NCBI GenBank assembly: GCA_002363515.1
Contig: DEVX01000021.1
Span: 1 to 8,705 of the forward strand
DNA: 8,705 nt
Origin: Candidatus Saccharibacteria bacterium UBA3225
GTDB taxonomy: Bacteria > Patescibacteriota > Saccharimonadia > Saccharimonadales > Saccharimonadaceae
Reading direction: 5' to 3'
Shown here: piece after piece, positions 1,860-4,892 of the stretch
Layout: the number at the start of each line of letters is the position of its first letter
Position numbering within the stretch: position 1 is the first letter of the stretch
Made by a program: the position numbers and the translations under genes
The notes under the pieces: generated by a model
Databases searched by the model: none
What the model was told of the DNA's origin: nothing
What the model saw: only the letters and a program-made list of their open reading frames with translations

Positions 1860-2345
1860 ATGGTTCTTTATACAACCCAAAGTCCAGAGGTATATCGTAT
1901 TATCCAAGAGGATGGCACTTACTTCTGCGATATAAGGAAAAGCCAAGTTTTCGACCTCTTTGAAAGGTCATATAATTGGCTCGAAGGCAAAGTTGGCGAA
2001 AGAGTAAGACGTCCAGCCGCGGCAAAAGGCTTAATCTGGGCCTATCATACATTGCCCGAATGGTTCGACTACCGCTACAGCGGCGAAATCGGAAAACAAA
2101 ACGTATTTATGCGTCTCGAAGTTCCGGACGAGCAGGTAACTTTTATCGAAGCTATGAAATGGCAGAACGTCGTTGATTGCTTTGGTTTAGAAGAAGCCGA
2201 GGATTTTGCAGCCGAGGGTGAATATGACGTATTCGATACGTCCGATGCCGAAGTGCCTCCAGAAGTGGTGATTTGGCAGATCAGTCGCGAATATGTAAAA
2301 GAGGCAATCTTTTATATTTGCGAAGAATCACACTATGATGATTAA
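1860..2345 (+). CDS. DUF3841-like protein of unknown function
   Basis: The 161-aa product has no signal peptide or membrane segment and is probably cytoplasmic and acidic. The N-terminus LYTTQSPEVYRIIQEDGTYFCD, then a YNWLEGKV segment (39-46), LIWAYH (58-63), the strand VFMRLEVPDEQV (82-93) and a C-terminal VIWQISREYVKEAIFY (138-153) follow the order of motifs I recall for DUF3841 (typically WT/YT-Q..EVY, an AYxWM segment, IWAW, LE[IV]Pxxxv, and a C-terminal FWEI helix). No function is known for that family and I assign none. Alternatives are an unrelated small accessory protein or a toxin-like fold. The gene has its own promoter and terminator and separates rplO from secY, which is not normal in this cluster, so it looks like a later insertion. 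Confidence 0.65.
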   Translation: MVLYTTQSPEVYRIIQEDGTYFCDIRKSQVFDLFERSYNWLEGKVGERVRRPAAAKGLIWAYHTLPEWFDYRYSGEIGKQNVFMRLEVPDEQVTFIEAMKWQNVVDCFGLEEAEDFAAEGEYDVFDTSDAEVPPEVVIWQISREYVKEAIFYICEESHYDD

Positions 2346-2442: not shown

Positions 2443-3855
2443 ATGAAATTTAAGACCATTTTTAAGTCTTTCAAGAACAAGGATATGCGCAAGCGTATTT
2501 TTGCGGTCGTCGGTATTCTGGTCGTCTATCGCTTTTTGGCTCATATCCCTGTCCCACTTGGAGATCAGACTACATTCAAGCAAGCAATCGATAACTTTAT
2601 TAACGGTACAGACTTCGGAGGCTTTATCAACCTAATTTCAGGAGGTGGCCTCACTAACTTCTCAATACTTCTAGTTGGCCTCTCGCCATATATCACCGCA
2701 TCTATCGTAATGCAGCTTCTTACCAAAGCCATCCCGCGCATGGAAGAGCTAAATAACGACGGCGAGGCCGGCAGGCGCAAAATTAGCCAGTGGACCCGTA
2801 TGCTAGCCGTTCCACTCGCAGTCCTCCAGAGCATTGCTTATATTTATATTCTTTTTCAAGAATTACTCGCAGCCAACACGGGTGGCTCCGTAGAGGTCAG
2901 TTTCCAGAGCTGGGCGCTAGCTGTTACATCGATGACGGCCGGGTCAATTATCTTAATGTGGCTAGGAGAGCTCGTAACCGAGCAAGGCATCGGCAACGGC
3001 ATATCTACTATCATCCTCTGTAGCATTATTTCTTCATTGCCAAAAACCTTAACTCAATTCGGCGTAGCATTATTCAATACTAGCGCAGGCACATTAAGCT
3101 TATTCGGTTGGCTAGAATTACCAGTCAATCCAAACATGTTCTGGACTATCCTAGGTTTGGGCGCAGGTTTGATAGTAGTGCTCTACGTACTAATCAAAAT
3201 CAACGAAGCGCAGCGCATTATTACGATTAATTATGCCAAGCGCGTACATGGCAACAGCGCATATGGCGGCATAAAATCAATTATGCCAATTAAGCTCATT
3301 GCGGCCGGTGTTGTACCAGTCATCTTTGCAGTCGCATTTCTATCCGTACCAGCATTTATTGGCCAATTAGTCCTACGTGCCGACCCAACAAGCGTTATTG
3401 CCAAGAATGTCGTTAGTTGGTTCACCGCACCAAACGCGAACACTTACGATTCCGCCACGGGCCTACAAGCGAAAGATTTTGTCTATCCTACGCTCTACTT
3501 CATACTCGTAGTCATGTTTACCTACTTCTATACAAGTATTGTATTTAATGCTCAAGAAATCGCAGAAAACCTCCAAAAGCAAGGCGGCTTCATAGAAGGC
3601 GTCCGCCCGGGCAAGCAGACAGAAAAATATTTCAACAAAGTCGTGAACCGCCTCAACCTATTTGGCGCATTAGCACTAGGCATTATCGCAATGCTCCCAT
3701 ACATCGTAGACTACATATTTATCGCGACTACAAATGCTCCGCTTGGATTGTCAATTTCTGGTACGGGACTCCTAATCGTAGTTACGGTCGCGCTCGAAAA
3801 TATGCGCCAAGTCAACTCTAGAGCACTAATGGTAACTTACGACGACTATCAATAA
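2443..3855 (+). CDS. secY: Protein translocase channel subunit SecY
   Basis: The 470-aa product is SecY, the pore of the SecYEG translocon in the cytoplasmic membrane that exports unfolded preproteins and inserts membrane proteins. Family marks in order: RKRI then the first membrane helix (~18-36) with RFLAHIPVP; the plug region FINLISGGGLTNFSI (61-75); LGLSPYITASIVMQLL; EQGIGNGIS (180-188); the cytoplasmic loop KINEAQRIITINYAKR (252-267); and GVRPGKQTEKY (386-396), which contains the conserved arginine loop that contacts SecA and the ribosome. About ten hydrophobic helices are visible. It is slightly longer than the usual ~435 aa; the extra residues lie mainly around 311-346 (an external loop) and near 140-155. 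AGAGG 4 nt before the ATG supports the start. Confidence 0.98.
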   Translation: MKFKTIFKSFKNKDMRKRIFAVVGILVVYRFLAHIPVPLGDQTTFKQAIDNFINGTDFGGFINLISGGGLTNFSILLVGLSPYITASIVMQLLTKAIPRMEELNNDGEAGRRKISQWTRMLAVPLAVLQSIAYIYILFQELLAANTGGSVEVSFQSWALAVTSMTAGSIILMWLGELVTEQGIGNGISTIILCSIISSLPKTLTQFGVALFNTSAGTLSLFGWLELPVNPNMFWTILGLGAGLIVVLYVLIKINEAQRIITINYAKRVHGNSAYGGIKSIMPIKLIAAGVVPVIFAVAFLSVPAFIGQLVLRADPTSVIAKNVVSWFTAPNANTYDSATGLQAKDFVYPTLYFILVVMFTYFYTSIVFNAQEIAENLQKQGGFIEGVRPGKQTEKYFNKVVNRLNLFGALALGIIAMLPYIVDYIFIATTNAPLGLSISGTGLLIVVTVALENMRQVNSRALMVTYDDYQ

Positions 3856-3856
3856 T

Positions 3857-4543
3857 ATGGCACTAAAAATCAATCGTACTACGCGAAGGGTAATTAAGGG
3901 CATCGGCATAGCACTACTGATTATACTAGTCGCCATAATGCTCAAAATCCTGGTATGGGAAAACAATTATTACAAGACCAAAACTGGCGAAGAACGCGCC
4001 ATGGCAGATGTGCCCATTACGCAAATCGTCAGCGCGCTAGATCCCTCAGAAACAGAGCCAACAACGGAAGACATCGCTAAATATCAAGTTGAAAAGAATA
4101 CGCCGCGCTACCTGGACATCGAAAGATTAAATATTCATGCCAGAGTCATAAAAACGGAAGTTGACACCAATGGTATCTTGGCAACGCCGGACAATATATA
4201 TGATGTGAACTGGCATTCTGGGTCGAACGCACCTGGCGAAGGCGGATACATAATAATTAGCGGGATTGACTCGGGAAAGACAAAAACCGGCATCTTTGCT
4301 AATCTCGACAGCATGGAAAAAGGCGACGAAATCTCCATTGAAAACGGCGATGGCGCCAAGTTTAAGTACGAGGTTAAAGAAATTAACGTTATCTCCGATC
4401 AAAAAGACAGCGATGAGAATCTTATCAAAATGCAAACCAAACTAAACGACGAAGAGACCTTATCGCTGATTACCGTAAAAACAAGGCAGAATAGTCGCGA
4501 ATTTGAATCTCTCGTGATGCTACGAGCCACTATTAAAAAATAA
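3857..4543 (+). CDS. Membrane-anchored sortase-fold protein lacking the catalytic residues
   Basis: The 228-aa product has a short basic cytoplasmic N-terminus, one membrane helix (~13-34, IGIALLIILVAIMLKIL), a linker (35-80) and an extracellular domain that follows sortases of the class found in Gram-positive and CPR bacteria: PRYLDIERLNIHARV (83-97), VDTNGILATPDNIYDVNWHSGSNAPGEGG (102-130), TGIFANLDSMEKGDEISI and a C-terminal LSLIT strand (202-206). In active sortases this domain carries His in a GH motif, Cys in an LITC-type motif and Arg near the end. Here the aligned positions are Ile137 (SGID), Val207 (LITV) and Ser218 (FESLV), so it is probably unable to transpeptidate. It starts 1 nt after the secY stop with no clear Shine-Dalgarno, which suggests translation coupled to secY. 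The frame is intact, so it is a pseudoenzyme rather than a decayed gene. Partner and role are unknown. Confidence 0.75.
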   Translation: MALKINRTTRRVIKGIGIALLIILVAIMLKILVWENNYYKTKTGEERAMADVPITQIVSALDPSETEPTTEDIAKYQVEKNTPRYLDIERLNIHARVIKTEVDTNGILATPDNIYDVNWHSGSNAPGEGGYIIISGIDSGKTKTGIFANLDSMEKGDEISIENGDGAKFKYEVKEINVISDQKDSDENLIKMQTKLNDEETLSLITVKTRQNSREFESLVMLRATIKK

Positions 4544-4607: not shown

Positions 4608-4892
4608 ATGGCTAGTCACAAGAAAACCACTAAGGTCGCCAAGAGAGACGCGGATAATTCCGTAGGCGCCAAGAATAAGAAGGAAGTTATTAAACTTACC
4701 GGAAAAGTCGTTGAAGCCCTCCCGGGGACCAAATTCCGCGTGGAGCTTGAGAACGGCCATATTATTGTTGCTCATATGTCGGGTAAAATGCGAAAGAATT
4801 ATATCCGTCTCGTGCCGGGCGACAAGGTGGATGTTGAATTAACGCCTTACGATCTCACGAAAGGGCGTATCAGCTACCGCCAAAAAGATTAA
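4608..4892 (+). CDS. infA: Translation initiation factor IF-1
   Basis: The 94-aa product contains the full IF-1 OB fold, which sits in the 30S A site during initiation. Residues 26-92 match the family closely: [26 protein letters not shown], then [23 protein letters not shown] and SPYDLT-like [13 protein letters not shown]. The usual length is ~72 aa; here about 22 extra, lysine-rich residues ([22 protein letters not shown]) come first. No internal ATG, GTG or TTG gives a canonical start, so the extension is real unless a rarer start is used. AAGG (4598-4601) lies 6 nt before the ATG. In many bacteria infA follows adk and map; here it follows the sortase-like gene. The 84-nt gap after it contains a structured RNA before rpmJ. 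Confidence 0.96.

Follow-up and report, generated by a model that had tools for sequence, protein, structure and literature searches.

The gene directly behind secY in an 8,705-nucleotide stretch of DNA from Candidatus Saccharibacteria bacterium UBA3225 (the whole stretch is called the window here) encodes a conserved pseudosortase, derived a single time from a SecY-linked sortase that was active. The sortases described so far are enzymes: a search of open-licence papers found no family of sortases that are conserved without the His-Cys-Arg catalytic triad, and no account of this protein. The protein belongs to a pseudoenzyme branch of the sortase superfamily, whose members, judging from the loss of the triad, would no longer cut or link proteins. 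The reading we favor, to which we give about even chances, is that the window protein serves as a non-catalytic accessory at the SecY channel exit and would bind exported proteins there rather than process them.

Gene order, fold and catalytic positions

The pseudosortase gene (3857..4543, forward strand; 228 amino acids) begins 1 nt past the stop codon of secY (2443..3855, forward strand), which encodes the protein-export channel subunit and is recognized by TIGR00967 with 354 bits (cut-off 253.6) and by PF00344 with an E value of 2.1e-93. The next gene is infA (4608..4892, forward strand). An earlier, sequence-only reading of this DNA had described an intact frame coupled to secY, and both features were confirmed here. 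In all 37 loci whose sortase lacks the triad, infA lies downstream and the spacing between secY and the sortase gene falls between -4 and +13 nt, a spacing suggestive of co-translation with SecY. For the locus L045, a spacing of 148 nt goes with a late-set start, and an earlier start gives about 14 nt. Inserts of at least 300 nt were present at the rplO-secY junction in 12 of 30 triad-less loci and at the sortase-infA junction in 2 of 37, counts that do not represent independent events because the triad-less loci are related. The window itself carries a DUF3841 gene between rplO and secY (1860-2345, forward strand; 161 amino acids; PF12952, E 6.9e-15), and diverged copies of this gene, with 34% identity, occupy the same junction in loci L007 and L009.

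The product scores 49.7 bits against PF04203 (curated cut-off 26.6), making it a member of the sortase superfamily, and its predicted fold is the sortase beta-barrel, in line with the sortase fold that the earlier reading had proposed. A single predicted membrane-spanning segment at about residues 14-33 (3896..3955, forward strand) lies within a predicted helix of residues 7-43, and the basic N-terminus (K4, R7, R10, R11 and K14) suggests, by the positive-inside rule, that the sortase domain at residues 83-228 (4103..4540, forward strand) is located outside. Residues 30-47 (3944..3997, forward strand) form an anchor motif, K-x3-W-E-x2-Y-Y-x7-R (K30, W34, E35, Y38, Y39 and R47), which is near-invariant in triad-less members. 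The nearest triad-intact SecY-linked group has the same motif, and since E35, Y38, Y39 and R47 are common to the triad-intact sister group, the motif is older than the triad loss. Among NCBIfam models, that of class F sortases (NF033748), which likewise consist of a membrane anchor and a single sortase domain, gives the best match both to the window protein, at 67.5 bits, and to its triad-intact orthologues, at 67-91 bits. All of these scores stay far below the curated class F cut-off of 166 bits, however, and the window protein differs from class F in lacking the catalytic triad and in having its gene tied to secY.

Alignment with triad-intact secY-linked orthologues puts the catalytic His column at Ile137 (4265..4267), at the end of a predicted strand of residues 131-137, the Cys column at Val207 (4475..4477), in predicted strand 201-209, and the Arg column at Leu219 (4511..4513), in predicted strand 216-226, all on the forward strand. 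The sequence-only reading had claimed that all three catalytic residues were replaced, and this was borne out; its placement of the His and Cys positions was right, while the Arg position, which it had read as Ser218, is Leu219. All three residues are missing in each of the 37 clade members, where the former His position holds I, L or V in 36 of 37 sequences, the former Arg position I, L, V or F in all 37, and the former Cys position V, A, L, N, I, T or G.

That catalysis has merely relocated, with some other residue as nucleophile and the protein still an enzyme, seems very improbable. Several near-invariant polar residues of the outer part (E154, Q193, E200, T201, Y171, N113 and S123) would speak for such a move, but the three positions that were once catalytic now hold mostly aliphatic residues, and no Cys or His column of the extracellular domain is occupied in as many as a third of the sequences. 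Cys is most frequent at residue 27, in the membrane span (49%), with 5% at the next column, and His at residues 76, in the linker (49%), and 94 (32%). The window product contains no Cys residue whatsoever, which excludes a Cys/His/Arg set elsewhere in it.

Distribution and origin of the triad-less form

Among 156 secY loci the next gene was a sortase in 132 and another gene in 23, and at one locus (L174) no next gene was found. The 132 secY-linked sortases do not amount to a frequency, because many of them were recovered by searching with the window protein. They collapsed to 108 distinct proteins, 69 of which retain His-Cys-Arg, while 37 lack all three residues and 2 lack only the Cys. The Cys-only losses, in which His and Arg are kept, come from genera g8 and g253 and comprise L051 (Phe) and L145 (Thr), together with L281 (Thr), which was identified after the count of 108 and stands outside that set. 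When sampling began from secY (99 genomes searched, 94 of them with a match, the best 30 kept), a sortase followed secY in 6 of 30 loci, made up of 6 of 9 in the window's family and 0 of 21 in other families. At 17 sortase loci from genomes outside the class there was no secY within about 1.5 kb on each side, stretches short enough that this counts as weak evidence, and the viral contigs searched yielded no relative. A published survey of CPR protein families reports one sortase family as common in the CPR (PMC6744442).

Of the 45 genomes searched within the window's genus, 39 allowed the triad to be read: it is missing in 37 and intact in 2 (G581 and G588). The gene is intact in all 39 of these genomes, which are the ones complete enough to read; in G660 a contig end cuts off the start of the gene, and G615 has only a C-terminal fragment. 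Neither a secY-linked sortase gene nor secY was found in five other genomes of the genus, and the missing gene is probably an assembly gap there, because secY is missing as well. Of 51 homologues in the protein database, 47 have none of the three residues, one (P0050) is intact and three were unreadable. One genome, G648, holds two contigs with the order rpsE-rplO-secY-sortase-infA (L021 and L030) that carry different triad-less copies, probably from two strains in one bin.

A sortase tree of the 108 proteins, built with the triad columns excluded, places the 37 triad-less proteins on one side of a branch with SH-aLRT 100, and an independent SecY tree (119 rows) recovers the identical clade, again with SH-aLRT 100; both trees are quick searches with no bootstrap. 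In the SecY tree, which includes 12 of the 24 sortase-less secY loci, all sortase-bearing loci fall into one clade (SH-aLRT 100) along with two sortase-less loci. By its position directly behind secY and before infA, and by its place in the same clade, the window gene belongs to a SecY-linked sortase orthologue group of Saccharibacteria. Close relatives of the triad-less clade keep the triad at the same locus: these triad-intact sortases (L038, L104, L049 and others) share the order secY-sortase-infA and the length of the window protein and are orthologous to it by tree, but they differ in that the catalytic His, Cys and Arg are still present and the shell around the active site is highly conserved.

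The sequence-only reading had proposed checking whether the triad is consistently absent beside secY, which holds within the clade (37 of 37) and fails for secY-linked sortases overall. Because 69 of 108 are triad-intact, the predicted inactive form is derived within one clade and is not general to secY-linked sortases. Nor is the window gene a lone decaying copy among active orthologues, as the 37 triad-less proteins form one clade. The simplest history is that an active sortase was placed once behind secY in the window's family, with later loss of the gene in some lineages, that the whole triad was lost once in the window's clade, and that the nucleophile was lost separately in genera g8 and g253, in one event or two, a point on which the sortase and SecY trees disagree. 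The trees give no firm branching order among the triad-less clade, the pair L038 and L104, and genus g3. The triad loss is older than the radiation of the clade.

Selection and the shift of constraint

Ten triad-less pairs with dS below 0.3, drawn from only five sets of close relatives, gave dN/dS values of 0.023, 0.026, 0.046, 0.058, 0.071, 0.071, 0.077, 0.082, 0.090 and 0.210, which indicates purifying selection and supports the earlier suggestion of a non-catalytic role kept by selection. Over all scored pairs, where dS is near saturation, the median was 0.25 for 69 triad-less pairs and 0.24 for 126 pairs with the His. Some positions gained constraint in the triad-less clade relative to its triad-intact sister group, among them Q193 (1.00 versus 0.23) and E154 (0.96 versus 0.21). 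Gln193 (4433..4435, forward strand) is Q in all 37 triad-less sequences and varies in the sister group, and Leu189 (4421..4423, forward strand) is likewise L in 37 of 37, where the sister group has Met. At positions that are invariant as amino acids (L189, Q193, K4 and I5) the codons vary, and therefore constraint acts on the protein.

Constraint has moved off the active site and, in relative terms, towards the membrane anchor. The mean pairwise difference of the active-site shell is 0.22 in the triad-intact sister group versus 0.59 in the triad-less clade, so that the best conserved of the three domain parts compared in the former is the worst conserved in the latter. Relative to the rest of the domain, the shell stands at 1.25 in triad-less versus 0.53 in triad-intact proteins (ratio 2.34; column bootstrap 1.52-3.95), whereas the N-terminal anchor, relative to the domain, stands at 0.97 versus 1.44 (ratio 0.68; 0.56-0.82). 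Taken overall, the domain is less conserved among triad-less proteins (mean difference 0.51) than among their active sisters (0.40). The b6/b7 loop, which in known sortases is part of the substrate groove, shows no gain in average conservation over active relatives (0.56 versus 0.51). Given this loop and the drift of the shell that surrounds the former active site, recognition of LPXTG-like signals may have been lost. The anchor and the intact fold are the parts best supported as still in use, and with the N-terminus carrying the greater weight, the anchor could be the only part that matters.

This drift of the shell and of the domain as a whole would also be expected of a dying sortase gene whose frame stayed open through chance or through its position in an essential operon, and slow decay of that kind could further appeal to the absence of the gene behind secY in 3 of the 9 family members of the secY-first sample and to the Cys-only losses in other lineages of the family (L051, L145 and L281). 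Against it, the gene is intact in all 39 genus genomes complete enough to read although triad loss predates the radiation of the clade, dN/dS in close pairs is 0.02-0.21, and the new positions L189, Q193, K4 and I5 are invariant in the protein with varied codons. We regard slow decay, like relocated catalysis, as unlikely, and would put both near the bottom of the range of explanations.

Possible role at the SecY channel

The genomes that carry the pseudosortase also carry other sortases, with 2 to 7 PF04203 matches per genome among the 31 genomes of the genus searched. A second sortase, not linked to secY, has an intact GH...TC...R signature in 28 of the 29 genus genomes from which such a locus was taken (the remaining one, L195, could not be read), and therefore catalysis was lost at the secY locus only and not from the cell. 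The dead secY-linked copy might act as a regulatory or scaffolding partner of these active sortases, in a complex or by competing for sorting signals near the membrane, with the position behind secY setting expression only. We think this unlikely, though it gains from the 21 genomes in which an intact second sortase and a dead secY-linked copy were both read, and from the six triad-less genomes of the genus with 4-6 sortase matches, as compared with 2 in each of the two triad-intact ones. However, the second sortase, of about 430 amino acids, also occurs in triad-intact genomes beside the active secY-linked sortase, so it did not arrive as a new partner when the triad was lost. Sortase matches also number 2-5 in each of 25 genomes of genus g3, and the secY-sortase junction, closed in 37 of 37 loci, points at least equally to SecY. 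For the same reason of co-occurrence in triad-intact genomes, the gain of a replacement sortase as the trigger of triad loss is unsupported.

Further sortases in the window's own genome (L004, L005 and L006) adjoin genes that, by reading of their open reading frames, resemble type I signal peptidases and pilin- or LPXTG-like surface proteins. One of them, L005 (contig C75, minus strand), reads as class-B-like and has one in-frame TGA, past which the frame runs on to LLSTC and a later Arg. Sortase matches with one TGA also occur in G583, G559, G518 and G656, which could indicate a shared broken gene or recoding.

In other bacteria, SecD/SecF or PpiD act at the exit side of the translocon, and the window protein might in a somewhat similar way be a general exit-side chaperone or a structural translocon subunit with no memory of sorting signals. 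Such a role would fit the N-terminal and membrane part, whose relative conservation exceeds that in active relatives, as well as the lack of any SecD/SecF match (PF02355) in 27 of 31 genus genomes; the four matches that were obtained are weak (19.4-22.4 bits), all lie in open reading frames of about 1230 amino acids, and are not credible as SecD/SecF. This lack is not specific, however, as SecD/SecF was also unmatched in two triad-intact genomes of the genus and two other family members, and three genomes of the window's family that were examined had no PF02355 match. We do not take the absence as support, because SecD/SecF is also missing where the triad is intact, and we consider a general chaperone of this kind rather improbable. 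Loss of SecD/SecF as a trigger of triad loss is rejected, since the absence does not track that loss.

The accessory role that we favor, suggested by gene order and by the pattern of conservation, would have the anchor docking the protein at or near the SecY translocon and the outer domain binding exported chains without processing them, possibly passing the bound chains on to catalytic sortases retained in the same genomes. Adjacency to secY is observed, and can reflect expression alone. In streptococci, sortase A is found at the Sec translocon, at the SecYEG channel, acting on emerging proteins (PMC9123276); it differs from the window protein in being catalytically active, and the passages of that paper describing it state no operon link to secY. 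By analogy with this enzyme, and because the ancestor was active at the same locus, a position at the channel may be older than the loss of catalysis. Another likeness is SpsA of Staphylococcus aureus, a type I signal peptidase that is listed as inactive, with no role given in that listing (PMC12445088). It too is a relative, inactive but retained in the genome, of an enzyme that processes proteins on the exit side, although its fold and parent enzyme are different.

A more specific version, which we offer tentatively and hold to be possible rather than probable, is that a sortase became a dedicated subunit of the Sec translocon, dropping catalysis once, keeping its anchor and capturing emerging chains outside, in cells where SecD/SecF is undetected. 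If that version is true, the conserved pseudosortase family would represent a translocon component that evolved from a protein-anchoring enzyme. One locus shows the active ancestral form, its single loss of the triad and the dead form that was kept, beside intact sister lineages, and the step from enzyme to non-enzyme is therefore open to direct study. Saccharibacteria have an epibiotic lifestyle in which host cells are held via surface proteins. If the window protein acts at SecY, these reduced epibiotic bacteria would have added a sortase-derived part to their export channel, with a bearing on how surface proteins that hold the host come to be displayed in Saccharibacteria.
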